A stretch of 64,000 nucleotides of DNA from Subtercola frigoramans (lineage in GTDB: Bacteria; Actinomycetota; Actinomycetes; Actinomycetales; Microbacteriaceae): positions 62,001 through 126,000 of the forward strand of contig NZ_JAFBBU010000001.1 in NCBI RefSeq assembly GCF_016907385.1, read 5' to 3'. Numbering within the stretch: the stretch's first letter is position 1; the number at the start of each line of letters is the position of its first letter. Shown piece by piece: positions 39,409 through 61,341 of the stretch. Below the pieces are notes generated by a model. The model was not told the origin of the DNA and ran no database searches. It was given only the letters and a program-made list of their open reading frames with translations. The position numbers and the translations under genes were made by a program.

Positions 39409-39446
39409 CGTTGAACCTTTCGAAAGTTTCGATGTTATAGTCGAAA
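39403..39446. promoter_or_regulatory. Nested palindromes in the lacI / ABC intergenic region
   Basis: Three adjacent palindromes: GTTCAACGTTGAAC at 39403-39416 (perfect, spanning the TTG start), CTTTCGAAAG at 39417-39426 (perfect), and TTTCGA-N8-TCGAAA at 39427-39446. LacI-family operators are usually centred on a CG step like the first two. Repression of the ABC-GH operon by the divergent LacI protein is the natural reading. Confidence 0.6.
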
Positions 39447-39466
39447 TGTGATTGGACTGTTGTCAC

Positions 39467-39482
39467 TATAGGTCAGATGAAT
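39467..39482. promoter_or_regulatory. Shared element TATAG(G/A)TCAGATGAAT, copy 1
   Basis: TATAGGTCAGATGAAT lies 61 bases before the lacI start; the same element with one change is at 43459-43474, 56 bases before the FadR-type gene. It could be a common operator that ties the two operons together, or a shared promoter -10 (TATAGG) with conserved initial sequence. Confidence 0.45.
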
Positions 39483-39543
39483 TGCGGCGTCAACTGAAAA
39501 TTCGACCCCTTATTCTCTCTCGAAAACCAGATTGATTGGACGC

Positions 39544-43389: not shown

Positions 43390-43403
43390 GGGCGCCTTTG
43401 ATT

Positions 43404-43419
43404 AGATGTATCGATGAAT
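43404..43419. promoter_or_regulatory. Operator-like half-sites upstream of fuconate dehydratase
   Basis: AGATGTATCGATGAAT contains GATGTAT and GATGAAT half-sites, 15 bases upstream of the dehydratase start. The same half-sites (TACATC/GATGTA, GATGAAT) recur at 43459-43474, 43537-43543, 47804-47816 and 47867-47879. Likely recognition by the FadR-type regulator. Confidence 0.45.
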
Positions 43420-43458
43420 TCGGTTCTGAATTGGCCCGCTCAAGCCGGACCGATCCAG

Positions 43459-43474
43459 TATAGATCAGATGAAT
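43459..43474. promoter_or_regulatory. Shared element TATAG(G/A)TCAGATGAAT, copy 2
   Basis: TATAGATCAGATGAAT, identical in 15 of 16 positions to 39467-39482, between the divergent dehydratase and regulator genes. Confidence 0.45.
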
Positions 43475-43530
43475 AATGGAGAATAGCGATTTCATTCAGA
43501 AGAAATGCCGGAATTGGCTAAACTTCGGAT

Positions 43531-46114: not shown

Positions 46115-46128
46115 AATGACCCTTCGAT

Positions 46129-46896
46129 TCACGCGGGTCGCGGGCGGAGCGAATCCATGCCGCCGTCGACAGCGAGAATGATACCGTTCGTGCTGCCCGA
46201 GCTCGGCGACGCCAGGTAGGCGACGGCCTCCGCGACTTCTTCGGGACGAACAAGGCGCTTTGTGGGCTGCCGGTTCTCCAGCGCCGCCCGCTCGGCCTGC
46301 GGGTCTTTCGCTCCGTCGAGAAGCCGCCCCACCCACGGGGTGTCGGCCGTACCCGGCGCGACGGCATTCACGCGGATGCCATACGGCAGGCAATCGACTG
46401 CCACGGCACGAGTCAGGGCTGAGATCGCGCCCTTCGACGCCGAGTAGAGGGCCCGGTCAGGCAGCCCCGCCGATGCCGCGATCGATGAGGTGAACACGAT
46501 GGCCGCGGCGGATGACCGGCGCAGGTGTGGCATGGCCGCTCGCACCGTGCGGGCGGAGCCGATGACGTTGACGTTCAGAACGCGCGCCCACTCCTCGTCG
46601 TCGTTCGCCTCGATGTCACCCTGTGCCCCGATGCCCGCGTTCGCGACGACGATGTCGAGCTGGTGTGCTTGCCTGATGACCTCGTCGATCGCTGCCTCGA
46701 CACTCGACGAGCTGCCGATGTCGCAGACGATGCCGACCAGGGGCAACTCGACCCTCTCGATCGTGAGATCGAGACAGTACACAGTCGCGCCGCGACTGCT
46801 CAGCTCCCTGGCGATGGCCGTGCCGAGCCCGGATGCGCCTCCCGTCACCGCAGCGACGAGCCCTTCGTACGGCAGGGGGATACGGGAATCGGTCAC
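46129..46896 (-). CDS. Short-chain dehydrogenase (2-keto-3-deoxy-L-fuconate dehydrogenase type)
   Basis: A 255-residue classical SDR. Cofactor motif VTGGASGLGTAIAREL (TGxxxGxG), NAG in VVANAGIGAQGD, and catalytic Ser and YxxxK in IVFTSSIAASAG and ALYSASKGAISAL. In non-phosphorylative L-fucose catabolism an SDR oxidises 2-keto-3-deoxy-L-fuconate at C4. Overlaps the FAH gene stop (GTGA). Substrate is assigned from pathway context. Confidence 0.85.
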   Translation of the reverse strand: MTDSRIPLPYEGLVAAVTGGASGLGTAIARELSSRGATVYCLDLTIERVELPLVGIVCDIGSSSSVEAAIDEVIRQAHQLDIVVANAGIGAQGDIEANDDEEWARVLNVNVIGSARTVRAAMPHLRRSSAAAIVFTSSIAASAGLPDRALYSASKGAISALTRAVAVDCLPYGIRVNAVAPGTADTPWVGRLLDGAKDPQAERAALENRQPTKRLVRPEEVAEAVAYLASPSSGSTNGIILAVDGGMDSLRPRPA

Positions 46897-47765
46897 AGTG
46901 TGGTTCCTTGCCTGATGAGCTGGCGCTGGGCGCCCAGCCCGGTGATCGTGGAGGTGTATTCGTCGCCGTCGCTGAGGTAGGGGAACCGGCCAGAGAGAGC
47001 CACGCCCTCCGGGGTGCCGGTGTTGATGAGGTCTCCCGGCTCGAGCACCATGTACTGGCTGAGGCGCAGCACGATGTCGGCGCAGGCGAAGATCAGATCG
47101 CTGGTCGTCGAGTCCTGGCGGGGCTCGCCATTCACTGCCGACGCGAGACGCAGCCCGCTCCCGTCCCCGACTTCAGCGGTCGGTACGAGCCACGGCCCCA
47201 GGGGATTGAACGTCTCGGCGCACTTGCCCTTGCTCCACTGGCCACCGGAGATCTCCAACTGGTATTCGCGCTCAGAGACATCGTTCGAAATGGTGAAACC
47301 GGCAATGGATGCCAGAGCCTCTGCGTGGCTCTGCAGGTATCGCGCGCGTCTGCCGATCACCAGGCCGAGTTCGACCTCCCAGTCGGTCTTCACCGACCCT
47401 GGAGGAAGGAGAACGGTGTCGTAGGGCCCGACGACGGTGTTCGGGTGTTTGAAGAAGATCACCGGCTCTGTGGGAGGCTCCGCGCCTGATTCGGCAGCGT
47501 GGGCTGCGTAGTTCATGCCCACACAGACGACCGCACCCGGTCTCGCAATCGGTGCGCCGATCCGCTGGCCCGTGCCGTCGCCCGGATCGTCGATCGCCGT
47601 CAAACCGCCCTGGTCCAGAGCGATCTGCACCTGTTCGATGCCTCCACGTTCAAGGAATGACCCGGTGATGTCGTCGGTGATCGTCGAGATGTCGAACAAC
47701 TGCCCGCGATCATCCATCACCGCAGGTGCTTCCAGGCCTGGGGGGCCCAACCGCAGAAACTTCAC
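46893..47765 (-). CDS. FAH-family hydrolase (2,4-diketo-3-deoxy-L-fuconate hydrolase type)
   Basis: A 290-residue fumarylacetoacetate hydrolase family member. Key segments: AVVCVGMNYAAHAAESGAEP, VIFFKHPNTVVGPYDTVLLP, DWEVELGLVIGRRARYL (metal-binding Glu), TISNDVSEREYQ and WSKGKCAETFNPLGPWLV. It would split the 2,4-diketo acid to pyruvate and L-lactate, the final step of the route. First gene of the operon; operator-like half-sites lie upstream at 47801-47879. Confidence 0.88.
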   Translation of the reverse strand: MKFLRLGPPGLEAPAVMDDRGQLFDISTITDDITGSFLERGGIEQVQIALDQGGLTAIDDPGDGTGQRIGAPIARPGAVVCVGMNYAAHAAESGAEPPTEPVIFFKHPNTVVGPYDTVLLPPGSVKTDWEVELGLVIGRRARYLQSHAEALASIAGFTISNDVSEREYQLEISGGQWSKGKCAETFNPLGPWLVPTAEVGDGSGLRLASAVNGEPRQDSTTSDLIFACADIVLRLSQYMVLEPGDLINTGTPEGVALSGRFPYLSDGDEYTSTITGLGAQRQLIRQGTTL

Positions 47766-47885: not shown

Positions 47886-48875
47886 TCAGGGGCGGACGGC
47901 GGCCGCGCCCTGGATGCGCTCGAGCAGCGCGATGTTCTGCATCGTGTGCGCCAGAAGCAGCCGGTGATCCAGCGGTGCCCTCTGTCGCACGGCTGCGCTG
48001 ACACCCTCGATTTCATAGGCGAATCCCGCCGCAGCCGAGTCGACGGTGAAGTGTTCGACGCGGCCGTCGTTCCAGCCGATGGTGAGTTCGGCCGGGCTGT
48101 AGATCTCACGCAGCTCCACCCACGCGTTCTCGAACTGCAGCTGGGCAGCCGAAGGGGCGGCGCCCGACGAGTCTGCGGCAAAGCTGCCGCCGAACTGCGC
48201 GAAGGACGTGTCGCGGCTGAGCAGCACAGCGGTCGCGAAATCCGTCCCATCGGCGGTGCGCTGCGAGGTGGCGGCTATCGAGGCGGGCTCGTGGAACCCG
48301 CTGTCGACTGCCGTGAGGATGGCCAGGGGATACACCAGGCACTCCCAGAGAAAGCTGCCACCGAGTTCAGCCGTCAGGGCGCGATGGCCCCTGGGAACGC
48401 CGATCGGCCCCGCGTTCGCCGTGAAGGCCCGCAGCGCGCCCAGCGAACCCGAGTCGACGAGGCCGAGCAACTGGGAGACCAGGGGATTGAACAGCGTCCA
48501 CATGCCCTCGATCGCCAGCGTCGGGCGATCGCCGAGCTCTTGGGCGATGGTCTCGGCATCGCTCGAGTTCAGCACCAGCGGTTTCTCGACCACAACGTGT
48601 TTGCCGTGGCCGATGGCCAGCAGGGCATCATCGCGATGGCGGTGCTGGGGGGTTGCGATGTAGACGGCTTCGATGGCCGGGTCGCTCACCAGTTCTTCGT
48701 AGCTCCCATATGCCCTGGCGCCGTCGCGGCCTTCTGTGAAGGCTTCGGCGCGGCCGAGGGAACGGCTGGCCACGGCGCTCAGCGTTGCGACCGAGGAGCG
48801 CTCGAGCGCCCCGCTGAACTCGGCGGCGATCATCCCTGTTCCCAGGATGCCCCACCGCACAGGTGCGTCAGTCAT
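47886..48875 (-). CDS. Gfo/Idh/MocA family oxidoreductase
   Basis: A 329-residue NAD(P)-dependent sugar oxidoreductase. Rossmann motif VRWGILGTGMIAAEFSGALE, the EKP catalytic lysine in HVVVEKPLVLNSSDAET, and PQHRHRDDALLAIGHGKH before it. Substrates in this family are sugars or inositols. It overlaps the upstream TolB-like gene by 4 bases. The region after the gene leads into the FAH operon start with 120 bases between. Confidence 0.88.
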   Translation of the reverse strand: MTDAPVRWGILGTGMIAAEFSGALERSSVATLSAVASRSLGRAEAFTEGRDGARAYGSYEELVSDPAIEAVYIATPQHRHRDDALLAIGHGKHVVVEKPLVLNSSDAETIAQELGDRPTLAIEGMWTLFNPLVSQLLGLVDSGSLGALRAFTANAGPIGVPRGHRALTAELGGSFLWECLVYPLAILTAVDSGFHEPASIAATSQRTADGTDFATAVLLSRDTSFAQFGGSFAADSSGAAPSAAQLQFENAWVELREIYSPAELTIGWNDGRVEHFTVDSAAAGFAYEIEGVSAAVRQRAPLDHRLLLAHTMQNIALLERIQGAAAVRP

Positions 48876-49753
48876 TTGGTGTTCTCCGGGTAGCTCACAA
48901 AGGCGAATCGAGTCGAATCAGGACTCCAGCTGTTGACGTTCAGGCTGCCCTGGCCGCCGAAGACGCGGGCGACCGTGCGGGGCGAACTCCAGTCGTCGAT
49001 GTCGACGATCTTGATCTCGACCCAGACGTCGGGTGGATGCCCTTCGGTACCGGGTGGAAAGGAGATGTAGCTCGCGTGCCTGCCATCCGGCGAGATGTGC
49101 GGAAACCAGTTGACGTTCTCATCGAAGGTGAGCTGTTCGAGATCCGATCCGTCAGCGCGCATTCTGCCCAGCTGCGCGTGCCCGTCGAACCGTTCGGTGT
49201 TGACGTAGAGCCACTCGCCGTCGGGGGAGTATTCGGAGCCGTCGAAGGGCGACACGCCCTCCGTCAGCCGCCGGTAGTCGTCACCGGCCGATGACACAGT
49301 GAAGACGTTCGCGTGCGCCCACCAGTTGTCTCCCTCCGGTTCCAGACCGATGAAGGCGAGCCGCTCGCCGTCGGGGCTGACCCCGTGCAAGAAGTGCATC
49401 AGCCCGGCGATCTCTGGGTTCCCGGTCACCAGCACCCCCTCACCGCCGGCAAGTGGTGCGCGGTAGATCTGCCAGTCGTTGGCAGAGAGGTAGATGTGTT
49501 CGCCATCGGGGTCGAGCACGTGATCGTTGTTCAGGTCAGGAACCCCGCTGAGCTCGACAGCGATGAGATCGCCGTCGAGTCCGAGCCGCCACAGCCCACC
49601 GGCACCGTTCAACACGAGACGGCCGTCGCTAGCCCAGTTCGGTGCCTCCAGGAGAAGAGAGTCGCTCCGGTAGATCTCGGTGGTGCGTTCCAGCAGCCGA
49701 TCGTAGATGCTGACCGCGGTCGATTGTGCGGTGCCAAGTGTTCTCAGGTCCAT
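48872..49753 (-). CDS. TolB-like beta-propeller protein
   Basis: A 293-residue protein with WD40-like PD40 repeats: APNWASDGRLVLNGAGG, HFLHGVSPDGERLAFIGLE, DGSEYSPDGEWLYVNTERFD, WFPHISPDGRHASYISFP and NSWSPDSTRFAFVSYP. No signal peptide, so unlike periplasmic TolB it is likely cytoplasmic. Similar propellers occur in oligogalacturonate lyases and beside Gfo/Idh genes in sugar loci. ATG at 49751-49753 has GGGGAGAG upstream; an in-frame extension to 49819 lacks a ribosome site. Confidence 0.75.
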   Translation of the reverse strand: MDLRTLGTAQSTAVSIYDRLLERTTEIYRSDSLLLEAPNWASDGRLVLNGAGGLWRLGLDGDLIAVELSGVPDLNNDHVLDPDGEHIYLSANDWQIYRAPLAGGEGVLVTGNPEIAGLMHFLHGVSPDGERLAFIGLEPEGDNWWAHANVFTVSSAGDDYRRLTEGVSPFDGSEYSPDGEWLYVNTERFDGHAQLGRMRADGSDLEQLTFDENVNWFPHISPDGRHASYISFPPGTEGHPPDVWVEIKIVDIDDWSSPRTVARVFGGQGSLNVNSWSPDSTRFAFVSYPENTK

Positions 49754-49845
49754 GTTTCTCTCCCCACTGGCAGCTTCGTTGCCGCGCGGTACGTGTACAT
49801 CGACGGTAGACGCATTCACTGAAGGCGTTCTACGACCTTCATGTG

Positions 49846-49889
49846 CTTTTTCAGAGCACAGAAGCAGCGCGTCTTCTGCTCTGAAAAAG
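49846..49889. promoter_or_regulatory. 44-bp inverted repeat between divergent sugar operons
   Basis: CTTTTTCAGAG (49846-49856) and CTCTGAAAAAG (49879-49889) are exact complements; inside, CAGAAG (49859-49864) and CTTCTG (49873-49878) also pair, with CA unpaired on the left side and an 8-base centre. It sits just upstream of a -10-like GATAAT at 49913-49918. A good candidate for the ROK repressor encoded at 54954. Confidence 0.6.
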
Positions 49890-49980
49890 TACAGAAGGTG
49901 CTTTGAAAGGGCGATAATGCGAGGCTACCTTGTGGTGTGGGCCCGAACCGGCCTTCCCGAAAACTCAAAGAGGAGTAGCA

Positions 49981-50982
49981 ATGAAACACAGCAGAATTCG
50001 CTGGGGCGTGGGTGCGGTATCCGCCGGCACAGCCCTGGTCTTCGTTCTCTCTGGTTGTGCCAGCGGGAGCACCCCGCAGGCGTCGAAGGATGCGAACACC
50101 TTCAGTGTCATCTACAGCGTGGACAAGATCGACGAGAACCAGACGGCGTACATCAAGTTCATGACGGATGAGGTGGCAGTCCTGAACGCCAAGGGCAAGC
50201 ACATCACCTTCGAGTCGTACGACGCAAACGGCAGTGTCGACAAGCAGATCTCCGATGTGCAGACGGCGCTTCAGAAGCACCCCGATGTGATGATCTTCTC
50301 GGCCGTCGACCCGGCCGGGTCGCTGCCCGCTGTTCAGGCCGCGAAGGATGCGGGGGTGAAGACGATCGACTTCCGCCCCTCCGACCCCGAGCCCGATGTC
50401 TACGATGTCGCCTTCGGAGCGAGCGAGAAGGACTACGCAGCGGCAACGACCGACTGGATGAAGAGCCTGCTCGACGCCGACCCCAAACTGACGCTCAATG
50501 TCGGACTGATCTACGGGGCTGCGGCGCAGACTCCGCAACTCATCCGAGAAGACGGAGTCAAGGCGTTCGCCACGGCAAACCCTGACCGCGTGAAGATCAT
50601 CGGCGAACAGTACGGCAACTGGCAGACCGACATCGCCCAGAACACCACCGCCGACTGGCTCCAGTCCCACCCGGAAGTCAACCTCATCTCCGCCGCGAAC
50701 TCCACGATGGGCCAGGGTGCCTCGAACGCACTCACCACGGCTGGCGTACGCAACAAGGTGCTCGTCTCCGGTTACGACATCAACCAGTCCAGCCTCGACG
50801 CAGTCAAGAGCGGCGCGATCGATTTCACGACCGGAGTTCTCGGCCCGGACTACGGCCAGATCATCGATGTGGCAGCCGGCCTGATGGACGGCTCGTTCAC
50901 CGACAAGGTCTACTCGATCAAGCCGGTCTACTCCGTGACCACCACGAACGTCGATGACGTCATTTCGAAGTTGAAGGGCTGA
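49981..50982 (+). CDS. Ribose-type ABC transporter sugar-binding lipoprotein
   Basis: A 333-residue CUT2 (RbsB-like) solute-binding protein with lipobox LSGC in TALVFVLSGCASGS, thus a cell-surface lipoprotein. The mature fold has VQTALQKHPDVMIFSAVDPA, TIDFRPSDPEPDVYD and KVLVSGYDINQSSLDAVKSG. ATG at 49981 has AGGAG ten bases upstream. Family substrates include pentoses, galactose and inositols; MocB of rhizopine catabolism is a relative. A hairpin follows. Confidence 0.9.
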   Translation: MKHSRIRWGVGAVSAGTALVFVLSGCASGSTPQASKDANTFSVIYSVDKIDENQTAYIKFMTDEVAVLNAKGKHITFESYDANGSVDKQISDVQTALQKHPDVMIFSAVDPAGSLPAVQAAKDAGVKTIDFRPSDPEPDVYDVAFGASEKDYAAATTDWMKSLLDADPKLTLNVGLIYGAAAQTPQLIREDGVKAFATANPDRVKIIGEQYGNWQTDIAQNTTADWLQSHPEVNLISAANSTMGQGASNALTTAGVRNKVLVSGYDINQSSLDAVKSGAIDFTTGVLGPDYGQIIDVAAGLMDGSFTDKVYSIKPVYSVTTTNVDDVISKLKG

Positions 50983-50995
50983 CCCAGCCCCTGAA

Positions 50996-51026
50996 GCCGG
51001 GCCCGGTGTACGACTCCGGGCCCGGC
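50996..51026 (+). terminator. Stem-loop between binding protein and permease genes
   Basis: GCCGGGCCCGG (50996-51006) pairs exactly with CCGGGCCCGGC (51016-51026) over a 9-base loop. It starts 14 bases past the binding-protein stop and 28 bases before the permease start. Such hairpins stabilise the binding-protein message and reduce read-through, giving excess binding protein. Confidence 0.6.
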
Positions 51027-51053
51027 ATCTCGTCACACACGAAGGTGAAAACA

Positions 51054-52064
51054 ATGTCTACAACCATGGCCAGTCGCGGGGACTTCATCGTCCAACGTAT
51101 TCTTCTCGGCAACAAGGCGGCCCTGTTCGCCGTGATCTTCGGGGTCGCCCTCTCGATCGGCAGCCCCTACTTCCTCACGGCGTCGAACCTCGGTTCCCTG
51201 CTCGACCAGATCGTCGTCATCTCGATCGTCGCCTTCGGGTTCACGTTCCTCCTTGGTGCGGGCGAGATCGACTTGTCGATCACCGGGGTCGTTCCGCTTG
51301 TCGGCGTCATCTCCGCCAAGTCGATGACCGAGTTCGGCTTCCCCGCCTGGGCGGCCGTCCTCGTCGGCATCGTGGTCGGCGCACTCTGCGGGCTCATCAA
51401 CGCCGCTATCGTGAATCTGTTCGAGCTGCCCGCATTCATCGTGACCTTCGCCGCTGGAGCCGTGTACATCGGTATCACCTACGTCATCACGAACCTCGTT
51501 CCCGTCTCGCAGCTCCCTCCCGCCTTCGTCGCAATCGGCCAGGGACGAGTGGGCGTCATCTCGGTGGCCACGCTGATTCTGATTCCCGTTTTCGCGCTGT
51601 TCGTGGTCGTGTCTCGTTCCACCGTCTTCGCCCAACATCTCATCGCCATGGCTGTCAGCCCCCAGGCAGTCAGAGTGGCCGGTATCAGCATCCCCTGGAT
51701 GCGTGTGCGCCTGTTCACCATTGCCGGCGCCTGTTACGGGTTCGCTTCGGTGCTCCTCACGGCACGATCGGCATCCGCACAGATCTCTGCGGGCTCGACC
51801 CTCCTGCTGCTCGTCGTCGCAGCGGTCGTCATCGGGGGCACCCCCCTGCTCGGCGGAAAGATCGCAATGGTCGGCACGCTCTTCGGCTGCCTCGTCATCG
51901 GCATGATCAGCAACGGCATGAATCTCCTGGGTGTGAACGCCAACTTCCAGATCATCTGGCAGGGTCTGTTGATCCTTCTCGCCCTGTTCATCGATGTGAA
52001 CTCGACCAAGCTCGCCGCCCGGATGGCAAAACGGCGAATGATGAGAACCCGAGTGGAGATCTGA
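51054..52064 (+). CDS. Ribose-type ABC transporter permease
   Basis: A 336-residue CUT2 family permease with eight to ten helices (ALFAVIFGVALSIGSPYFLT, VVISIVAFGFTFLLGAGEID). The motif GEIDLSITGVVPLVGVI and STLLLLVVAAVVIGGTPLLG match RbsC-type proteins (GGIDLSVG..., GxDAIAAVVIGG). ATG at 51054 has AAGG before it. It is homodimeric by family. Confidence 0.92.
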   Translation: MSTTMASRGDFIVQRILLGNKAALFAVIFGVALSIGSPYFLTASNLGSLLDQIVVISIVAFGFTFLLGAGEIDLSITGVVPLVGVISAKSMTEFGFPAWAAVLVGIVVGALCGLINAAIVNLFELPAFIVTFAAGAVYIGITYVITNLVPVSQLPPAFVAIGQGRVGVISVATLILIPVFALFVVVSRSTVFAQHLIAMAVSPQAVRVAGISIPWMRVRLFTIAGACYGFASVLLTARSASAQISAGSTLLLLVVAAVVIGGTPLLGGKIAMVGTLFGCLVIGMISNGMNLLGVNANFQIIWQGLLILLALFIDVNSTKLAARMAKRRMMRTRVEI

Positions 52065-52069
52065 GAACG

Positions 52070-52879
52070 ATGACTACGACAATCGAGCCCGGCGCAACGC
52101 GCGTCGCCGCTGTCAGTATGCGCAACATCGACGTGGCTTTCGGAGGCGTCCATGCGGTGAGGGATGTGTCGATCGACCTGTATTCCGGTGAGGTCGTTGC
52201 ACTGCTCGGCCACAACGGTGCCGGAAAGTCCACTCTCGTCAGTATTCTGGCCGGGGCGACCATCCGCGACAGCGGCACCATTCTCATCAACGGAGCTGAG
52301 GCGCAGATCGACTCTCCCCGCACTGCGCGCGACGCGGGTATCGAGACGATCTTCCAGAATCTTGCGCTCGCAGACAACCTCGATGCCCCATCGAACCTGT
52401 TCCTCGGTCGAGAGATGCGAACTTTCGGGTTCTTTCGCAAGAAAAAGGCGATGGCTGCCGCCGCGGCGGAGGTGCTCCAGCGCATCAATCCACGCTTCAA
52501 GAACCTCGACGACCAGGTGCGCAACCTCTCCGGGGGCCAGAGGCAGTCGATCGCCATCGCCCGAGCGGTGTACTTCAATGCCCGGGTCATCATCTTCGAC
52601 GAACCGACCGCGGCCCTGGGGCCTGCGGAATCGAAGCTGTTCCAGGAACTGGTGACCCGCCTGAAGTCAGAGGGTGTTGCCATTCTGATCATCAGCCACG
52701 ACATCCACGAAGTCTTCGAGCTCGCAGACAAGCTGGTCGTCATGACCGACGGCAAGGTCGTCGGCCGGCTCAACACGGCAGAAGCCACCAAGCAGCAGGT
52801 ACTCTCGATGATCATCCTGGGTGGTTCTGACGATGGGGATTCCGACGCCGCGAAGTCGTTGGTGGAGTCACTCCTGTGA
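52070..52879 (+). CDS. Single-domain sugar ABC transporter ATPase
   Basis: A 269-residue ATPase. Walker A GHNGAGKSTLVSILAG, signature RNLSGGQRQSIAIARAVYF, Walker B VIIFDEPTAALG, and the His switch LIISHDIHEVFELADK. Usual ribose-type ATPases (RbsA) have two fused domains of about 500 residues; this one has one, as in FrcA-type transporters, and would act as a homodimer. It overlaps the next gene in GTGA. Confidence 0.92.
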   Translation: MTTTIEPGATRVAAVSMRNIDVAFGGVHAVRDVSIDLYSGEVVALLGHNGAGKSTLVSILAGATIRDSGTILINGAEAQIDSPRTARDAGIETIFQNLALADNLDAPSNLFLGREMRTFGFFRKKKAMAAAAAEVLQRINPRFKNLDDQVRNLSGGQRQSIAIARAVYFNARVIIFDEPTAALGPAESKLFQELVTRLKSEGVAILIISHDIHEVFELADKLVVMTDGKVVGRLNTAEATKQQVLSMIILGGSDDGDSDAAKSLVESLL

Positions 52880-54018
52880 ACACAGGGGTGCCGTCACTGA
52901 ACATCGGGATGGTCGGGCATGCGTTCATGGGTGCAGCCCACAGTCACGCGTGGCGCAACGCCGCGAGGGTCTTCGACTTGCCGCTCGAGCCGCGAATGGT
53001 GGCCGTGGCCGGTACCTCCCCTGAGCGCACCGCAGCTGCTGCACAGCGGCTGGGCTGGTCCGAGGCAGTCACCGACTGGCGTGAACTGATCGAGCGTGAC
53101 GATATCGACGTCATCGACATCTGTACTCCCAGTGACACTCACCGTGAGATCGCCGTCGCTGCACTTGCAGCAGGCAAGCACGTGCTGTGCGAGAAGCCCC
53201 TGGCCAATTCGCTGGCTGAGGCCGACGAGATGGCTGAAGCGGCGCGAAAGGCGGCCGAGCTCGGAATCTGGGCGTCGTGTGGCTTCACGTATCGCCGCCA
53301 GCCGGCGGTGGCATTGGCCCGCCAGCTCATCCAGGATGGCTCGCTGGGAACGATCCGCCACGTGCGCGTGACCTATCTGCAGGACTGGCTGAGCAACGAG
53401 AAGGCGGAGCACAGTTGGCGCCTGGACGCCAGTCGCTCGGGCTCTGGTGCGCTGGGTGACCTCGGCGCCCACGCAATCGATCTTGCGCAGTGGGTGCTGG
53501 GCGAGAAGATCACGACGCTGAGCGCTCGAACGCGAATCTTCGTGGATGCCAGGCCCTCGGCCGGCAGCGGAAACCTCGAGCCGGTGACCGTCGACGATGC
53601 CGCCTTCGTTCTCGCAGAGTTCTCCGATGGCGTGATCGGCACGATCGAGGCCAGCCGGTATGCGTTGGGCCGCAAGAATGCCTTCGGGTTCGAGATCAAC
53701 GGATCGAACGGTTCAGTGGCCTGGGAATTCGAGCGCAACAACGAGCTCCAGCGGTATGACGGCGGCGCTGACCCACGAAGCGCTGGTTTCACCCGCGTGC
53801 TCGTGACAGAACCATCCCACCCCTATCTCCAGAACTGGTGGCCCGCTGGGCACACCCTGGGGTACGACCATGCCTTCGTGAACCAGGCGGCCGATTTTGT
53901 GACGTCGATCTGCGCGGGCCTCCAGCCCACCCCGTCGTTCGCTGACGCCGCCTATGTTCAGCGTGTTCTCTCGGCCGTACAGCTGAGCGAGAACTCCCAC
54001 CAGTGGCAAGCAGTGTGA
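52876..54018 (+). CDS. Gfo/Idh/MocA family oxidoreductase
   Basis: A 380-residue NAD(P)-dependent dehydrogenase, the second of this family in the locus. Rossmann start NIGMVGHAFMGAAHSHAWRN, catalytic EKP in HVLCEKPLANSLAEADE, and the substrate domain RHVRVTYLQDWLSNEKAEHS and GALGDLGAHAIDLAQWVLGE, in which DxxxH is catalytic. GTG start overlaps the ATPase stop. It may oxidise an imported glycoside at C3 or an inositol to an inosose. Confidence 0.9.
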   Translation: MNTGVPSLNIGMVGHAFMGAAHSHAWRNAARVFDLPLEPRMVAVAGTSPERTAAAAQRLGWSEAVTDWRELIERDDIDVIDICTPSDTHREIAVAALAAGKHVLCEKPLANSLAEADEMAEAARKAAELGIWASCGFTYRRQPAVALARQLIQDGSLGTIRHVRVTYLQDWLSNEKAEHSWRLDASRSGSGALGDLGAHAIDLAQWVLGEKITTLSARTRIFVDARPSAGSGNLEPVTVDDAAFVLAEFSDGVIGTIEASRYALGRKNAFGFEINGSNGSVAWEFERNNELQRYDGGADPRSAGFTRVLVTEPSHPYLQNWWPAGHTLGYDHAFVNQAADFVTSICAGLQPTPSFADAAYVQRVLSAVQLSENSHQWQAV

Positions 54019-54042
54019 CTTGCCGAGAAATGAGGAACAGAA

Positions 54043-54891
54043 ATGAATGAATCCGACGACGGCTTCGAGCCGCTCTTCAACGGACACGATCTCAGTGGCT
54101 GGGTCGTCCAGCCCCGGCAGTACGGCCCGGTCTATCCCGGTGGCCCTGACGTGACCGAGGTCCTCACGGTCTTCCCCTCGAACTACAACGAACTCGCTGC
54201 CGAGCATCCGGCGGCCTGGACAGTCGAAGACGGCACCATTGTCGGTCGGCAGGATGCCCCCGGAAGTGGCTGGGGCGGATATCTCGTCACCGAGGAGAAA
54301 TATGGCGACTTCGAGCTGCGCCTCGAGATGAAGCCCGACTGGCCGGCCGACACAGGCGTCATGATCCGCAGGCGCTTCGACTCGTGGGATGGACTCCAGG
54401 TGCTCGTCGATCACCGCCAGTCCGGCTCGATCGGAGGCTTCTTCGGCAATGGACTCGGCAGTTTCCATGCCGTTCCCTTCGCGCTGACCGCGAAGTTCGA
54501 CGAATCCGGGACTGCTGTCGCCTTGAAAGAAGACGACCCTGAAACGTCTGTCGAACCATTCGAGCAGAGCAAGGCCGACATGCTCGACTTTGCCGGAGAT
54601 GTGACCGCTTTCCTCGACGCCTGGAAGTGGAACGACTGGAATTCGCTCACCATCCGGTGCGTGGGAGAGATTCCCAGGGTCACGACGTGGGTGAACGGAG
54701 TCAAGGTCGCCGAAATAGACCTCGCGACTCTCGAAGCGCCCGACTATGTCGCTGGCGACGTGGCCGAACTTCTCGGCTCGAGTGGTCACATCGCTCTCGA
54801 GGTGCACGACAACGACCCCATGCTGGGCGATGGCCGTTGGGCTCCGGGGGCTGCATGCCGGTGGCGTGATTTGCGCATCAAGTCGTTGTGA
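54043..54891 (+). CDS. DUF1080 (3-keto-disaccharide hydrolase-type) protein
   Basis: A 282-residue protein of the DUF1080 (3-keto-disaccharide hydrolase, LamG/concanavalin-like) family. Signature: FEPLFNGHDLSGWVV, WTVEDGTIVGRQDAPGSGWG, YLVTEEKYGDFELRLEMKPD and TGVMIRRRFDSWDGLQVLVD. Members hydrolyse 3-keto-glycosides made by Gfo/Idh oxidoreductases. No signal peptide, so it works in the cytosol, unlike many secreted relatives in Bacteroidetes. It follows the oxidoreductase gene by 24 bases. Confidence 0.85.
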   Translation: MNESDDGFEPLFNGHDLSGWVVQPRQYGPVYPGGPDVTEVLTVFPSNYNELAAEHPAAWTVEDGTIVGRQDAPGSGWGGYLVTEEKYGDFELRLEMKPDWPADTGVMIRRRFDSWDGLQVLVDHRQSGSIGGFFGNGLGSFHAVPFALTAKFDESGTAVALKEDDPETSVEPFEQSKADMLDFAGDVTAFLDAWKWNDWNSLTIRCVGEIPRVTTWVNGVKVAEIDLATLEAPDYVAGDVAELLGSSGHIALEVHDNDPMLGDGRWAPGAACRWRDLRIKSL

Positions 54892-54953
54892 CCGAGACTG
54901 GCCCCGCCGATGGGCGAGAATTGGCCAGGGTAACCAGTATTCAAGGGAAGACG

Positions 54954-56189
54954 ATGACGTCACTCAGACTCTCCGCACCGCTCCTTTCTGCGCGGATCGA
55001 CTCCGAACTGCTGGCCAGCACGCTGGCGAAACTGCTCGGAAGCGGAAACGCCGCATGCAAGGCAGACCTCGTGCGTGTCACTGGGCTGTCGCGGACCACT
55101 GTCGACACGGGCATCCGGTTGCTTCTCGAACACTCCGTCATCAGACGGGCCGGATTCCGCCAGACATCGGGGCGCGGTCGTTCGGCTGAGCTGCTCGAAC
55201 TCAGCCCGGATTACGGCTACGTGCTGGTCGCCGACTGCAGTGCCCACATGGCCCAGCTGGGAGTGTTCGATCTCAACCAGAAGGAACTCAGTTCGAGTTC
55301 TGTGCGATACGAACTGAGTGAGGGGCCCCAGAAGGTCCTGGGTGCGATCGTCGCCGAATTCCTGCGTCTGCTCGACGAGCTCCCGCACTCGGCCGTCGTC
55401 ACGGTGATGGGACTGCCGGGGCCGGTCGACAACAGGTCAGGCACCGTGGTGCGCCCACCCATCATGCCCGGCTGGGACGGCTTCCCGATTGCTCAGTTCG
55501 TGGGCACAGCCCTTGAGTGCCAGGTCGTGCTCGAGAACGACGTCAACCTGAGGGCCCTGGGCGAAGCGAGGGCTATCGGCCCCCTTTCCGGCCCCCTGCT
55601 GTATGTGAAGGTGAGTACGGGAATCGGGGCGGGGATCGTCACCGCGAATGGTGAACTGATGCACGGTGCCGACGGCTCGGCGGGTGACATCGGGCACATC
55701 AAGCTCGCGTCCCAGGATCGCCCCTGTGTCTGCGGGAACAATGGTTGCCTCGAGGCGGTGGCCTCGGCCGCTGCACTGACGCGCCGGATGATCGGAGCCC
55801 CGTACACCGCGGCAGTCGACGGTGCCGACATCGACCGGTTGCTGGAGAGGATCAACGCTGGCGACCCGGAGGCGCTTGCGAACCTGAAGGAGGCAGCCCA
55901 GTACGTGGGCGAGGCGATCGCGAATCTCGTCCATGTGCTGAATCCGTCCCGGATTGTGATCGGGGGCATGCTGGCCAACGCCGGCGACGACCTCCTGGCC
56001 ACTGTTCGGGGCATCGTCTACCAACGGGCTCTGCCCTTGGCGACGCGCGAGCTCACTGTCGGCAAACCCCTTCTCGGGGTTCGTTCGGGCATGGCCGGCG
56101 GCCTCATCACCGGTATCGAACGAGCTCTCAGCCCCGACTCATTGAACGCCCACATCAATCTGGGCAAAGGATTGGAAAACATCGCATGA
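54954..56189 (+). CDS. ROK family transcriptional repressor
   Basis: A 411-residue regulator inside the operon. Residues 15-75 are a winged helix (LLASTLAKLLGSGNAACKAD, then LVRVTGLSRTTVDTGIRLLL). The ROK domain has VVLENDVNLRALGEA, VSTGIGAGIVTANGELMHGA, and the zinc motif CVCGNNGCLEAVAS. The presence of an HTH marks a repressor rather than a sugar kinase. ATG at 54954 has AAGGGAAG upstream; an alternative GTG at 54888 overlaps the DUF1080 stop. Likely target: the inverted repeat at 49846-49889. Confidence 0.9.
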   Translation: MTSLRLSAPLLSARIDSELLASTLAKLLGSGNAACKADLVRVTGLSRTTVDTGIRLLLEHSVIRRAGFRQTSGRGRSAELLELSPDYGYVLVADCSAHMAQLGVFDLNQKELSSSSVRYELSEGPQKVLGAIVAEFLRLLDELPHSAVVTVMGLPGPVDNRSGTVVRPPIMPGWDGFPIAQFVGTALECQVVLENDVNLRALGEARAIGPLSGPLLYVKVSTGIGAGIVTANGELMHGADGSAGDIGHIKLASQDRPCVCGNNGCLEAVASAAALTRRMIGAPYTAAVDGADIDRLLERINAGDPEALANLKEAAQYVGEAIANLVHVLNPSRIVIGGMLANAGDDLLATVRGIVYQRALPLATRELTVGKPLLGVRSGMAGGLITGIERALSPDSLNAHINLGKGLENIA

Positions 56190-57082
56190 CCGTTATCGCC
56201 ATCAACCCCCTTCCGTGGTTCCTCGGACCGCACGGCGAGCCCCTGCTCACTCCGGAAAGCCTCGATGAGGCACTCGGCGTGCTCGTGCGCGCCGGTTTCG
56301 GTGCCGTGAGCATCGCCATCCCCGAGGGCATGAGCCCTTCGGACTACCTCGCGGCACTCGCCACGCAGACTGTCGTCCCGGCGGCGGGTTACTTCGGTGC
56401 CGACCTGCACGATGAGGCAACCCGCGACTCGGTCGTCGAGGCCGCCGTGCTGCACGCGCGACAGCATCGCGAACTGGGCGTGACCCAGACCTTCATCGCC
56501 TCGAACCTCTCGCCCGAACGGATCCTGCTGCCAGCGCAGGGGGCTCTTGCCGATCCGGTGCGCACAGCTGTCATCGCAGAGACGGTGGGCCAGGTCATGC
56601 GCGCAATGGCTGACGAAGGCGTCACGGCGTGCCTGCACCCACACGTGGGGAGCTGGATCGAGACCGAGGAGGAGATCGACCAGGTCATGGCTGCCGTTCC
56701 CGAACTGCGGTTCGGCCCCGACACCGGCCACCTGTTCTGGGCGGGCATGGATCCGGCCCGGGTGATGCAGCGCTACAGCGGCCGCCTGGGAGGGGTCCAC
56801 ATCAAAGACGCCTCGCTCGACGCGATGAAACGTGCTCTGGATGCCCGGCTCGACTACTTCGATGCAGCACAGCTCCACGTCTGGACGGAGCTCGGCGAGG
56901 GTGACGTCGACCTGGTGGCGGCCCTTGCCACCGTGCCCGACGATTTCGACGGATGGCTGGTGGTCGAAGTCGACGTGCCGAGTGCGCCCACGGCGGAGGA
57001 GTCGACCCTCGCTTCAGGCGAATGGATCCGCCGGAACGTGGCCGTGCTGCCCGACGCAGAGGAGACCCCGAGCCATGTCTGA
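56186..57082 (+). CDS. IolE/MocC-like TIM-barrel dehydratase or epimerase
   Basis: A 298-residue metal-dependent TIM-barrel (xylose isomerase-like) enzyme. Motifs [43 protein letters not shown] and [12 protein letters not shown] match the IolE/MocC subgroup (HPHxGTxxET, DTGHl.aG.D, HlKD, E.D), which dehydrates 2-keto-myo-inositol or acts in rhizopine and levoglucosan-type pathways. It overlaps the ROK stop by 4 bases and the next gene by 8 bases. Confidence 0.85.
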
Positions 57083-58103
57083 CTCCCTCGCGCTGCCCGG
57101 GCAGCCCCCGGTCACCCTCTTCACCGGCCAGTGGGCCGACCTTCCCTTTGAGGAGGTCTGCCGCCTCGCCGCCTCCTGGGGGTACGACGGTCTTGAGATC
57201 GCAGCCTCGGGAGATCACCTCGACCTTCTGAGGGCCGAGGAAGACCCGTCGTACCTGCAGGGCAGGCTCGACATTCTCGACCGGCACGGGCTCAGTGTGC
57301 ACGCAATCTCCAACCATCTCACCGGTCAGGCCATCTGCGACGACCCCATCGACTTCAGGCACCAGGCGATTGTGCGCCCCTACACCTGGGGTGACGGTGA
57401 GCCCGAAGGCGTACGCCAACGGGCGGCCGAAGATATGAAACGTGCCGCTCGCGTGGCGCGGCGATTGGGTGCTGACGTCGTGACCGGTTTCACCGGGTCG
57501 AAGATCTGGCCGTATGTCGCCCAGTTCCCACCCGTGCCGCAGAGCGTGATCGACGACGGTTATGCCGATTTCGCGACGAGGTGGAACCCGATCCTCGATG
57601 TCTTCGACTCGGAGGGCGTGCGTTACGCCCACGAAGTGCATCCCTCCGAGATCGCCTACGATCACTGGACGCTTCTCGCGACACTGGATGCCATCGACCA
57701 CCGGCACGCCTTCGGTGTCAACTGGGACCCGTCGCACATGCTGTGGCAGCAGATCGACGTCGTTGCCTTCATCTGGGAGTTTCGCGACAGGATCTGTCAC
57801 GTGGACTGCAAAGACACCAGGCTGCGTCGCCCCGATGGTCGCAACGGTGTGCTCGGTTCTCACCTGCCGTGGGGCGACCCGCGCCGGGGCTGGGACTTCG
57901 TGTCGACGGGCCACGGCGATGTTCCGTGGGAGGACTCCTTCCGCGCCCTTCGTTCGATCGGCTATTCGGGCCCGATCTCCATCGAATGGGAAGACGCCGG
58001 GATGGACCGGATGCGCGGTGCCGCCGAGGCGATCGGTTTTGTTCGCGGGCTGCTGTGGGAACGACCATCGAGCAGTTTCGACAGCGCCTTCAGCCAGCAG
58101 TGA
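57075..58103 (+). CDS. Sugar phosphate isomerase/epimerase (TIM barrel)
   Basis: A 342-residue TIM-barrel protein of the AP-endonuclease-2 superfamily. Metal ligands are in [16 protein letters not shown] (Glu, His), [17 protein letters not shown] (Asp, His), [16 protein letters not shown] and [12 protein letters not shown] (Glu). The long loop [20 protein letters not shown] is characteristic of members found with Gfo/Idh dehydrogenases. Likely acts on a keto-sugar. Overlaps the previous gene in ATGTCTGA. Confidence 0.87.
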
Positions 58104-58185
58104 CTCTCGCCTTCTCGCCCCCCGTCACGCTGGCAGTCGCCGGCGTGCGTGCGCCCACCTCCCGTCGAACGAAGGACGTCCGTTC

Positions 58186-58920
58186 ATGATCTCGATCCAA
58201 CTGTGGACTCTGCGTGCAGAGATCGCCGAGCGCGGACTGGGCGGTGTCGTCGACGAACTCGCCTCGGTCGGCTTCGCCCACGTCGAACCGTTCCAGATCG
58301 CCACCTGCGCAGCCGAGCTGGCTCCGGCCCTTGTGCGCAACGGGATGACCGCGCCCACCGTGCACGGCGACCTGCTCGGTGACGCCCTCGCGGCCTCGCT
58401 CGATGCCGCGGCCGCGGTCGGCGCTGGGCTGCTGATGCACCCCGCGTTCCTCGCCGACTACTGGAATACGCCCGACGGCACCGAGCGCGTTTCCGACGTT
58501 CTCAACCGGGCGGCCGAAGCGGCGATCCCGTACGGGATCCGGGTCGCCTTCCACAATCACGACGACGAGCTGAAGTCCATGGTCGATGGTAGGCCGGCGC
58601 TGGTGTCGTTGATGGACCTTCTCAGCCCGACGGCGGGCGTCGAGTTCGACCCCTATTGGACCACGATCGCCGGCGCCGACGTGCTGGACACGATCGATGC
58701 CCTCGGCGAACACCTCTTCGCGTTGCACCTCAAAGACGGCCCCCTCGTCGGGCGAAACGAGGACCAGGTGGCGGTCGGCGACGGCGAGATCGACCTGGCG
58801 GCGGTGCTCGCGGCCGTCGACTCGTCGGTGCCGCGGGTGATCTCGCTCGACCTGATTCAGACCGACCCGTTCACGGCCGTCGTGCGCAGCAAGAACTGGC
58901 TTGACCGCGCCGAAGCTTGA
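58186..58920 (+). CDS. Sugar phosphate isomerase/epimerase (TIM barrel)
   Basis: A 244-residue, shorter TIM-barrel relative. ISIQLWTLRAEIAERGLGGV, VAFHNHDDELKSMVDGRPAL, GVEFDPYWTTIAGADV, LFALHLKDGPLV and VGDGEIDLAAVL are the usual elements, including metal-binding His, Asp and His. ATG 58186 has GAAGGAC nine bases upstream; the frame is open for 600 bases upstream only by chance. Third barrel enzyme in a row, separated by 82 bases from the second. Confidence 0.85.
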   Translation: MISIQLWTLRAEIAERGLGGVVDELASVGFAHVEPFQIATCAAELAPALVRNGMTAPTVHGDLLGDALAASLDAAAAVGAGLLMHPAFLADYWNTPDGTERVSDVLNRAAEAAIPYGIRVAFHNHDDELKSMVDGRPALVSLMDLLSPTAGVEFDPYWTTIAGADVLDTIDALGEHLFALHLKDGPLVGRNEDQVAVGDGEIDLAAVLAAVDSSVPRVISLDLIQTDPFTAVVRSKNWLDRAEA

Positions 58921-58937
58921 CAGGAGGGGCGCCGAAG

Positions 58938-60329
58938 ATGCCAGACTTCTGGCATCTCGACGAAAGGCGCACTGTGATCGACAGAACCCGTTTGGCAGCA
59001 CTCTACGCCAGGGAACAGGCATCCTTCGTCAGTGCGCACCCGCGATCGGCCCGGGCCTACGCCGACGCGAACCACCTCTTCGGCCAGGTGCCGATGACCT
59101 GGATGAACAAGAAGGCCGGCGCCTACCCCATCTACCTCGACCGGGCGCTCGGCAATCGCGTGTGGGATCTCGACGGCTTCGAGTACATCGACTTCGCGCT
59201 CGGTGACACCGGCGCGATGGCCGGCCACTCGCCTGCGGCAACGGTCGCGGCGGTTCAGCACCGGGCATCCGATCTCGGTGGCATCACGACGATGCTGCCC
59301 ACCGAAGACGCCGAGTGGGTGGGCGCCGAGCTGACCCGCCGCTTCGGCCTCGACCGCTGGAGCTTCGCTCTGACGGCGACGGATGCGAATCGCTGGGCGA
59401 TTCGACTCGTGCGAGCCATCACCGGGCGGCCGAAGATCCTCTTCAACAGCTACTGCTACCACGGCAGCGTCGACGAATCCCTGATCGTGGTCGGCCCCGA
59501 CGGCGAAGGAATGTCGCGACCCGGCAACGTGGGCGAGCCGGTCGACGTCACCGTCACCTCGCGCGTCGCCGAGTTCAACGACCTCGAGGGCCTCGAGCGC
59601 CAGCTCGCGCACGGCGACGTCGCAGCGGTGCTCATGGAGCCCGCGCTCACCAACATCGGCATCGTCTTGCCCGAACCGGGGTACCTCGAGGGCGTGCGCG
59701 AGTTGACCCGCAAGTACGGCACGCTGCTGATCAACGACGAGACACACACCTTCTCGGCGGGGCCGGGCGGCGCGACCCGCCTGTGGAACCTCGAACCCGA
59801 CATCCTGGTGATCGGCAAGTCGATCGGCGGAGGTATTCCGATCGGGGCATATGGCCTGAGTGCCGAGTTCGCGGCCTCCGCGCTCGCCCGCACCGACCTC
59901 GACCTCATCGACATGGGCGGAGTCGGCGGAACGCTCGCCGGCAACCCACTCTCGATGGCGGCCGCGCGGGCGACCCTCGAGAATGTGCTCACCGACGAGG
60001 CGTTCGAGCACATGATCGCGACCGCGACTCTCTTCACCGAGGGCGTACAGGCAGCCATCGACCGTTTCGGACTGCCGTGGTCGGTCAGCCAGCTCGGTGC
60101 CCGCACCGAGTACCGCTTCTCGAACCCGGCCCCGCGCGACGGTACGGAGTCGAACGCAGCCGCCGACGGTGAACTCGAAGACTTCCTGCACCTCTACCTG
60201 TTGAACCGCGGTATCCTCCTCACGCCGTTCCACAACATGGCGCTCATGTCGCCGGTGACGACGGCCGCCGATGTCGTCGCCCACCACGTGATCTTCGAAC
60301 AGGCCCTCGGCGAACTGCTCGGCTCCTAG
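58938..60329 (+). CDS. Class-III aminotransferase (glutamate-1-semialdehyde aminomutase-like)
   Basis: A 463-residue PLP enzyme. PLP lysine in ILVIGKSIGGGIPIGAYGLS, Asp in LLINDETHTFSAGPGG, and N-terminal YLDRALGNRVWDLDGFEYID. The usual phosphate-binding motif SGTEA is TATDA here, and the following YCYHGSVDES is conserved. No typical pathway neighbour for haem synthesis is present; the gene lies 17 bases after a sugar epimerase, so it may transaminate a keto-sugar, cyclitol or their semialdehyde. ATG 58938 has AGGAGG 10 bases upstream. Confidence 0.82.
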   Translation: MPDFWHLDERRTVIDRTRLAALYAREQASFVSAHPRSARAYADANHLFGQVPMTWMNKKAGAYPIYLDRALGNRVWDLDGFEYIDFALGDTGAMAGHSPAATVAAVQHRASDLGGITTMLPTEDAEWVGAELTRRFGLDRWSFALTATDANRWAIRLVRAITGRPKILFNSYCYHGSVDESLIVVGPDGEGMSRPGNVGEPVDVTVTSRVAEFNDLEGLERQLAHGDVAAVLMEPALTNIGIVLPEPGYLEGVRELTRKYGTLLINDETHTFSAGPGGATRLWNLEPDILVIGKSIGGGIPIGAYGLSAEFAASALARTDLDLIDMGGVGGTLAGNPLSMAAARATLENVLTDEAFEHMIATATLFTEGVQAAIDRFGLPWSVSQLGARTEYRFSNPAPRDGTESNAAADGELEDFLHLYLLNRGILLTPFHNMALMSPVTTAADVVAHHVIFEQALGELLGS

Positions 60330-60378: not shown

Positions 60379-61341
60379 ATGGATGCCCTGCTCGAAGCCA
60401 CGCGGCCGCTGACGACCAGCTACTTTCCGCGCAGCCCGCTGAATCTGCGGCAGACGGTGGGCCCCCTCCTGCGTGGCCTCGGCGACCCGACCATGAGACT
60501 GACACCCAACGGGTTCTGGCGCGTCATGCGCACGCCGCTGGGTCCGGCGACCCTGCACGTCGAATCAGGGCAGAGCAGAATCATCGCCACGGCCTGGGGT
60601 GAAGGTGCTGAGTGGGCTCTGGATGCCCTGCCGGCCCTCCTCGGCGCGGCCGACGACTGGTCGGGCCTGGACCTGTCGGGGGTTCCGCCGCTCGCCGAGG
60701 TGCGCCGCCAGCACCAGGGAATGTGGCTGACGAAGACCTCGCTGGTGTTCGAATCGCTGGTTCCGACCATCCTGGAGCAGAAGGTCACGACCGTCGAGGC
60801 GCGACGGGCCTGGCGCTACCTGCTCGCACGGTTCGGTGAGGTGCCCCCGGGTCCCGCGCCTGCAGGGATGCGGGTGCAGCCGAGCGCAAGGGGCTGGGCG
60901 TTGGTGCCGTCGTGGGAGTGGCACCGTGCTGGTGTCGGCCCCGACCGTTCGCGCGCTATCGTCACCGCGGCCGCCGTCGCCGATGCGCTCGACCGACTCG
61001 CCGCACCGACGGGCTCGGCGTCCACCTTCGCTCCGGGCGAGGTGCTCACAATCGTTCTCGAGAAGCTGCAGTCGGTGCGCGGGGTGGGGCCGTGGACGGC
61101 TGCGGAGACGAGCCAACGCTCGCACGGTCATCCGGATGCCGTCAGCGTCGGGGACTTTCACCTCGCGGCCCACGTGGGCTGGGTGCTGATCGGCAAGCCG
61201 GTCGACGACGACGGCATGCTCGAACTGCTCGAGCCGTGGCGGGGTCACCGTCAGCGCGTCGTGCGACTTCTGCTCGCGAGCGGGGTCGCGAAGCCGCGGT
61301 TCGGGCCGCGTGCCACCATCGCCGACCATCGCTGGCACTGA
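60379..61341 (+). CDS. DNA-3-methyladenine glycosylase (HhH-GPD, AlkA-like)
   Basis: A 320-residue base-excision repair glycosylase. The helix-hairpin-helix is LEKLQSVRGVGPWTAAETSQ and the catalytic Asp is in DAVSVGDFHLAAHVGWVLIG, as in AlkA (DxxPxxDxxL). TSLVFESLVPTILEQKVTTV then EARRAWRYLL is the family helix. N-terminal 100 residues form the AlkA-type beta domain (GFWRVMRTPLGPATLHVESG). It removes alkylated purines. Monocistronic, ending in a hairpin. Confidence 0.85.
   Translation: MDALLEATRPLTTSYFPRSPLNLRQTVGPLLRGLGDPTMRLTPNGFWRVMRTPLGPATLHVESGQSRIIATAWGEGAEWALDALPALLGAADDWSGLDLSGVPPLAEVRRQHQGMWLTKTSLVFESLVPTILEQKVTTVEARRAWRYLLARFGEVPPGPAPAGMRVQPSARGWALVPSWEWHRAGVGPDRSRAIVTAAAVADALDRLAAPTGSASTFAPGEVLTIVLEKLQSVRGVGPWTAAETSQRSHGHPDAVSVGDFHLAAHVGWVLIGKPVDDDGMLELLEPWRGHRQRVVRLLLASGVAKPRFGPRATIADHRWH

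Follow-up and report, generated by a model that had tools for sequence, protein, structure and literature searches.

A predicted 3-keto-O-glycoside cluster of Subtercola frigoramans that joins three recurring gene modules and abuts a probable bystander aminotransferase

Background

Among the closest described relatives of the gene cluster examined here is the GlycDH-OGE-HYD-Gfo operon of Agrobacterium tumefaciens (PMC10628242; structures 8BVK and 8RO4). As set out in the accessible part of that source, its O-glycoside eliminase, AtOGE, binds Mn2+ through His132, Asp163, His189 and, weakly, Glu233, with His134 as the base; in the other AtOGE subunit a displaced metal is bound by His132, His66, Glu39 and Glu161; and the C-glycoside enzymes (CGEs) have a Glu at the place of His132. 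The same part also names a levoglucosan pathway of Bacillus smithii. Relatives of another family, DUF1080, include BT2157, a 3-ketotrehalose hydrolase, and CCNA_01705, a lactose-fitness gene (accessible part of PMC9007349). Here an AtOGE-like TIM barrel and a DUF1080 protein are described from one cluster, which lies at positions 47886-60329 of a 64,000-nucleotide stretch of the Subtercola frigoramans genome (assembly GCF_016907385.1, contig NZ_JAFBBU010000001.1, positions 62,001 to 126,000); this whole stretch is termed the window, and coordinates refer to it unless another locus is named.

A sequence-only reading had proposed that the cluster degrades a keto-glycoside or an amino-cyclitol, with a class-III aminotransferase either removing or adding nitrogen. 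The present analysis indicates that eleven of the twelve genes probably form a cluster for the oxidation, beta-elimination, hydration and reduction of 3-keto-O-glycosides, the aminotransferase taking no part. This draws on gene content, homology, an active-site pattern in one TIM barrel, the recurrence of gene modules in other genomes and the non-recurrence of the aminotransferase with them.

Results and discussion

Three of the proteins (TIM1, TIM2 and TIM3) are AP_endonuc_2 TIM barrels. TIM3 matches AtOGE (8BVK) with 44 bits (E 1e-10) over residues 74-212 and shows, by order and spacing, the pattern of three Mn ligands plus a base His: H123, D155, H181, D222, H125, H60, E34 and E153 follow the order of the AtOGE residues given in the accessible part of its description, at similar spacing, and H123, H125, E153, D155 and H181 fall inside the matched stretch. 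TIM3 is thus a predicted Mn enzyme with H123/D155/H181/(D222) as putative site and H125 as putative base. TIM2 matches 8RO4, a 2-hydroxy-3-keto-glucal hydratase, with 135 bits over residues 25-336, and 2zds with 509 bits; 2zds-type TIM2 proteins occur in 140 of 394 genomes of the class at E<=1e-90. A TIM2 homologue (75% identity) lies on Novosphingobium pSA2, in a gene run with the C-glycoside deglycosidase beta subunit (CGDB, PF19906); no CGDB match was found among the twelve window proteins at E 0.001, intergenic DNA not having been searched separately.

The DUF1080 protein scores 90.2 bits against PF06439, above the gathering score of 26.8, and its fold matches include BT2157, 8tda, 8v31, 8rr2 and 9fbe, among whose titles are 3-keto-2-hydroxy-glucal hydratase and 3-keto-glycoside eliminase/hydratase. 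Its predicted model is moderate, with a predicted local distance difference test (pLDDT) score of 76 and a query template-modelling (TM) score of 0.42-0.49 to DUF1080 structures, and therefore the fold does not separate a hydrolase from an eliminase-hydratase. DUF1080 proteins of this kind are rare: at E<=1e-25 only one of the 394 class genomes, the cluster's own, has one. Two Gfo/Idh proteins are candidates for the roles of C3 dehydrogenase and 3-keto-glucose reductase, and no flavin dehydrogenase was found among the twelve proteins. One of the two, GfoA, matches the levoglucosan dehydrogenase model NF052479 over its full length with 323 bits, short of the cut-off of 650; its structure matches are 4h3v (482 bits) and 6a3f (266 bits), the latter listed as 'Putative dehydrogenase' and which we take to be levoglucosan dehydrogenase.

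From these similarities we infer the following route. The ABC importer would bring in an O-glycoside or anhydro-sugar, whose sugar C3 a Gfo/Idh enzyme, most likely GfoA, would oxidise to a ketone; TIM3, working with Mn2+ as AtOGE does, or the DUF1080 protein, or both, would then remove the aglycone by beta-elimination, leaving 2-hydroxy-3-keto-glucal; TIM2 and/or the DUF1080 protein would add water to give 3-keto-glucose; and the other Gfo/Idh enzyme, most likely GfoB, would reduce this to an ordinary sugar. (That GfoA oxidises and GfoB reduces is a guess.) The ROK protein would repress both divergent operons through paired sites in the region between them, and the TolB-like propeller, as the recurring partner of GfoB, is perhaps an enzyme acting on a keto-sugar. 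Because at least two candidate eliminases and at least two candidate hydratases share one operon, two types of substrate, or two linkages, may be cleaved in parallel.

Outside the window the genes recur as three modules--GfoA with TIM2, GfoB with the TolB-like gene, and DUF1080 with TIM1--all of which are joined in the window. In the first, GfoA stands directly before TIM2 on the Arthrobacter plasmids of StoSoilB13, ERGS1:01 and AK-1 and in genome G017, with identities of 49-51% (GfoA) and 69-72% (TIM2). More broadly, 40 TIM2 loci from 38 genomes were surveyed (the best after the cluster's own in list order, except for the G017 row, L111), with a threshold of 60 bits and 40% coverage for a match, paralogues included: a GfoA-type gene is present in 25, a ROK gene in 23, a ribose-type ATPase in 19, a permease in 18, a TIM3-type gene in 12, a TIM1-type gene in 2 and the aminotransferase in none. 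Many of these GfoA-type genes are just 28-40% identical and lie several kb off.

The second module occurs with or without DUF1080. Operons of LacI, CUT1 importer, DUF1080, Gfo and TolB genes are found on plasmids of Agrobacterium leguminum, A. larrymoorei and Rhizobium AB2/73; the order TolB-Gfo-DUF1080 is found in Microbacterium aoyamense; and TolB adjoins GfoB in StoSoilB13 and G017. Six of the seven plasmid records with DUF1080 carry TolB about 1 kb away, representing, by matching identities, roughly three distinct lineages, and when plasmids were searched with GfoB alone, the six highest-ranked of 958 records were the Gfo genes that DUF1080 and TolB flank. Such operons on two Ti plasmids (L093, L094) and an At plasmid (L095) also have a heme-degrading or heme-binding domain; as a guess, they may use a plant or opine-like glycoside. 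The third module, with TIM1 beside DUF1080 (L080, L097), is found in Novosphingobium KACC 22771 and at a second locus of the same Subtercola genome (G000 C1:641-651 kb, L080/L081), which has DUF1080 (60%), TIM1 (44%), two Gfo/Idh genes, a CUT1 importer and LacI. Between those two Gfo/Idh genes lies a Pfam-less open reading frame (ORF) of 275 aa. L120 and L122 each have a plasmid gene in the corresponding position, and the products of these two are 37% related to each other, but no kinship of the 275-aa product to them was detectable.

The TolB-like protein (293 aa; structure match 2ojh, 151 bits; AlphaFold2 model pLDDT 84) is repeatedly encoded next to the same Gfo/Idh (and DUF1080) genes, in Actinobacteria as well as on plasmids of Agrobacterium and Rhizobium. 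Elsewhere it stands apart from them, and of the 30 plasmid records that have TolB, 24 show no DUF1080 match. Its residues H78, H123, H219 and Q268 are invariant in all 24 of 24 homologues. It could conceivably be a metal-dependent enzyme of the cytosol that has so far gone unrecognised in 3-keto-glycoside catabolism, such as a lyase, epimerase or mutarotase acting through these residues with its Gfo/Idh partner, a proposal that is tentative and somewhat improbable as it stands. Several records name the homologues 'biopolymer transporter Tol'. Identity with the TolB of the Tol-Pal system was rejected: the equivalog score is 51 bits against a cut-off of 343, and E. coli TolB is matched only over about residues 153-431, its N-terminal part having no match. 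Among open-licence PMC papers, none was found that links TolB-like propellers with 3-keto-glycoside chemistry, is relevant to 2OJH, or deals with Mn oligogalacturonate-lyase beta-propellers, and the pairing of DUF1080 with Gfo retrieved only an iron-deficiency paper; DUF1080 together with 3-keto-glycosides retrieved a single paper. Two further arrangements were seen: in Microbacterium aoyamense (L085, 8095-12369) two TolB-like genes (56% and 46% identical to the window's) flank Gfo/Idh and DUF1080, and in Arthrobacter and Marivivens (L100, L102) a TolB-like gene adjoins a ThuA-domain gene.

The aminotransferase, by contrast with the module genes, does not recur with the cluster. Its homologues at E<=1e-90 occur in 112 of the 394 class genomes, the cluster's own included; flanks were taken from 36 of the other 111 genomes and from the same-genus genome G004 (37 genomes in total), as a rule some 10 kb and less where a contig ended, down to a total of 3.5 kb for G050. 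No match at E<=1e-8 to the solute-binding protein (SBP), permease, GfoA, GfoB, TolB, DUF1080, ROK or TIM1-3 was found near it in these genomes, the only matches being to the ABC-ATPase (26-33%), an SDR (31-34%) and other aminotransferases. In the other direction, 74 loci picked by cluster genes gave no match to it, even at E 1e-3: DUF1080 or TolB had picked 27 of them (one own-genome locus counted twice, as two halves), TIM1 or TIM2 had picked 7, and the other 40 are the TIM2 loci above, a count that stands apart from L086 (short DUF1080 match only), L115 (own-genome stretch) and L123 (fetched by the aminotransferase). For the aminotransferase itself, 23 loci from 21 genomes (L038-L044 and L046-L061, thus without L045 and L062-L077) showed no conserved partner beyond lineage-specific synteny in at most five loci, larger groups being read as the aminotransferase itself plus its overlapping frames.

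The history of the locus within the genus points the same way. G004 is without window positions 29091-58861 (about 29.8 kb), and the sequence flanking the gap to left and right matches at about 85-91%. This island holds a probable fucose pathway, GH95, GH3 and GH43 genes, importers and the keto-glycoside cluster; at the G004 junction there remain colinear scraps of window 29342-29399, 29998-30067 and 30257-30286, followed by the last 59 bp of TIM3 and then the complete aminotransferase, adjoining scraps overlapping by 2 to 9 bases. On the simplest reading, the island is ancestral and was lost stepwise in G004. The G004 aminotransferase is 97% identical, with nonsynonymous (dN) and synonymous (dS) divergences of 0.017 and 0.395; because the resulting dN/dS of about 0.04 spans the whole time since the split, it is not by itself proof of selection after the island was lost. 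Searches of the whole G004 genome for DUF1080 and TIM3, the two cluster genes sought in this way, found neither of them at another place. Across the genus, DUF1080 occurs in one of 12 genomes and TIM3-like matches, at only 32-34%, in four others, and gene order is traceable only in G004.

Since the aminotransferase is kept in G004 without the cluster and does not co-occur with cluster genes in other genomes or loci, it is most likely a neighbour that abuts TIM3 and lies outside the system. The sequence-only reading had counted it as a member and let its case depend on homologous clusters keeping it; none of the loci examined does. A role for it has the merit that, with 17 bp between it and TIM3 and a shared strand, it may be co-transcribed. 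One such role would be as part of a pathway that degrades or makes an amino-cyclitol or amino-sugar, with the enzyme supplying or taking away nitrogen in the manner of rhizopine catabolism, and TIM1 is indeed a full-length relative of IolE; yet, besides the lack of co-occurrence in the 37 genomes and 74 loci and the retention in G004, the specific models fall far short, with the rhizopine SBP model at 27 bits (cut-off 420), the IolE model at 93, 32 and 19 bits for TIM1, TIM2 and TIM3 (cut-off 290) and the IolG model at 129 and 55 bits for GfoA and GfoB (cut-off 355), so that this is scarcely probable at all. Nearly as improbable is that the aminotransferase was recruited only in this lineage and acts with the cluster: its adjacency to TIM3 is older than the G004 split, because the final 59 bp of TIM3 still adjoin it in G004, but the remainder of the cluster has gone from that locus in G004 and the aminotransferase has not. 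A more serious alternative, though still an unlikely one, is a pathway for levoglucosan or a like anhydro-sugar (LgdA/B1/B2/C type), proceeding by CUT2 import, oxidation, opening by elimination, hydration and reduction. The full-length match of GfoA to the levoglucosan dehydrogenase model, its match to 6a3f and a CUT2 importer suited to a small substrate favour it; against it, GfoA reaches only half of that model's cut-off and is nearer to 4h3v, and the Lgd set is not known to include DUF1080 or TolB partners.

The 3-keto-O-glycoside reading itself has several points to answer. The TIM3-8BVK match is weak, and the residues were compared by order and spacing, not by residue-level alignment to AtOGE; E34, H60 and D222 fall outside the matched stretch, and D222 stands for AtOGE Glu233. 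TIM1 (which matches 9zmu with 68 bits), being a full-length if sub-threshold IolE relative, leaves some room for an inositol-like substrate. DUF1080, TolB and GfoB are in none of the 40 TIM2 loci, and all eleven genes together are in no examined locus besides the window. CUT2 importers usually carry monosaccharides, there are more candidates for cleavage and hydration than the pathway requires, and the first oxidation in A. tumefaciens is by a flavoenzyme, GlycDH, not by a Gfo/Idh enzyme (accessible part of PMC10628242). Of the two substrate classes first proposed, the keto-glycoside is favoured by the set of Gfo/Idh, DUF1080 and TIM-barrel proteins, the AtOGE pattern and the TIM2 hydratase homology, whereas the amino-cyclitol is not, the Moc/Iol models remaining below cut-off; and the claim of a new combination holds for the exact gene set, but not for the chemistry. 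The analysis ties two actinobacterial TIM barrels, including the 2zds type, to named steps of glycoside beta-elimination, draws attention to a wrongly named propeller family whose members could be tested as enzymes of this chemistry, and removes a misleading member, the aminotransferase, from the candidate pathway.

Gene layout, promoter and surroundings

The genes (Table 1) were checked by ORF calls, third-position GC, and Pfam and NCBIfam profile scans, which bear out the content, order and strands first described: two leftward genes, a dehydrogenase and the TolB-like propeller, face ten rightward genes ending with the aminotransferase. The genes are, as was also claimed, closely joined, with 4-bp overlaps at TolB-like/GfoB, ATPase/GfoA and ROK/TIM1 and an 8-bp overlap at TIM1/TIM2, in addition to the 17-bp gap before the aminotransferase. 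Third-position GC, from the chosen starts, is 0.76-0.87 in all 12 genes. Large antisense ORFs (e.g., 49816-51054 and 51033-51638) were without support and were taken as spurious.

Table 1. Features of the cluster, in window coordinates.
Feature	Position	Strand	Remarks
GfoB, Gfo/Idh/MocA oxidoreductase	47886..48875	-	PF01408; candidate 3-keto-sugar reductase or dehydrogenase
TolB-like propeller	48872..49753	-	PD40; no signal peptide by eye
Inverted pair of 17-bp sites, possible repressor operator	49842..49893		divergent intergenic region
Ribose-type (CUT2) solute-binding lipoprotein (SBP)	49981..50982	+	PF13407; LSGC lipobox by eye
CUT2 permease	51054..52064	+	PF02653
Single-domain CUT2 ATPase, 269 aa	52070..52879	+	sugar-importer models matched are ~500 positions long
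GfoA, Gfo/Idh, candidate glycoside 3-dehydrogenase	52876..54018	+	related to levoglucosan dehydrogenase
DUF1080 protein, 3-keto-glycoside hydrolase or eliminase-hydratase family	54043..54891	+	PF06439; no signal peptide by eye
ROK-family repressor	54954..56189	+	PF00480; alternative GTG start 54888
TIM1, IolE-like TIM barrel	56186..57082	+	PF01261
TIM2, homologue of 2-hydroxy-3-keto-glucal hydratase	57075..58103	+	8ro4, 2zds matches
TIM3, O-glycoside beta-eliminase-like TIM barrel	58186..58920	+	8bvk match, predicted Mn site
Class-III aminotransferase, PRK07046 subfamily	58938..60329	+	598 bits, cut-off 425

The divergent region (227 bp) contains two facing 17-bp sites that are 16/17 complementary and are separated by an 18-nt spacer. 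With a search pattern taken from the sites themselves, no further copy was found in the window at up to 3 mismatches (0.12 further copies being expected per window), and the genome holds no other copy with one mismatch or fewer. A reversed control pattern also has 1 genome match, and hence the rarity of the sites is weak evidence; it is instead their facing arrangement in a divergent promoter that argues for an operator, for which the ROK protein is the obvious candidate binder.

Upstream, window 31544-47765 holds a probable L-fucose catabolic set that is separate from the keto-glycoside cluster (GH95, GH3, CUT1 importer, GH43, MR_MLE, GntR/FCD, amidohydrolase, aldo/keto reductase, SDR and FAH genes). 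The gene after the aminotransferase (60379-61341) has no Pfam match at E 0.001 and is present in G004 at 87%.

Comparison with known systems

As far as we know the levoglucosan pathway of Bacillus smithii, the cluster resembles it in its four-step logic and in the kinship of GfoA to levoglucosan dehydrogenase, and differs in its additional DUF1080, TolB-like, TIM1 and ROK proteins. Rhizopine and myo-inositol catabolism (Moc, Iol) is alike only at the superfamily level, through Gfo/Idh, the IolE-like TIM1 and the CUT2 importer, the window proteins lying below the specific model cut-offs. The C-glycoside deglycosylation clusters (accessible part of PMC8563793) are linked through the 75% TIM2 homologue near CGDB on Novosphingobium pSA2; in contrast to them, TIM3 has the OGE His rather than the CGE Glu, and the twelve proteins yielded no CGDB subunit. 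With the Bacteroides DUF1080 systems (BT2157, accessible part of PMC9007349; 8TDA, 8V31, 8RR2 and 9FBE by title) the cluster shares fold, profile and, by prediction, 3-keto-glycoside chemistry; no signal peptide is visible, however, in its DUF1080 protein, which over the match exceeds the Pfam profile by about 90 residues and whose close relatives (50-61%) are few in the collections searched and are actinobacterial and alphaproteobacterial. The A. tumefaciens GlycDH-OGE-HYD-Gfo operon, as covered by the accessible part of PMC10628242, has in common with the window OGE-type and HYD-type TIM barrels, a Gfo/Idh protein (the reductase there, a candidate reductase here) and the predicted chemistry. 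There GlycDH, a flavin enzyme, oxidises first, a step for which the window probably uses a Gfo/Idh enzyme; and whereas DUF1080, TolB-like and ROK proteins are not named in that part of the source, the window has all three.

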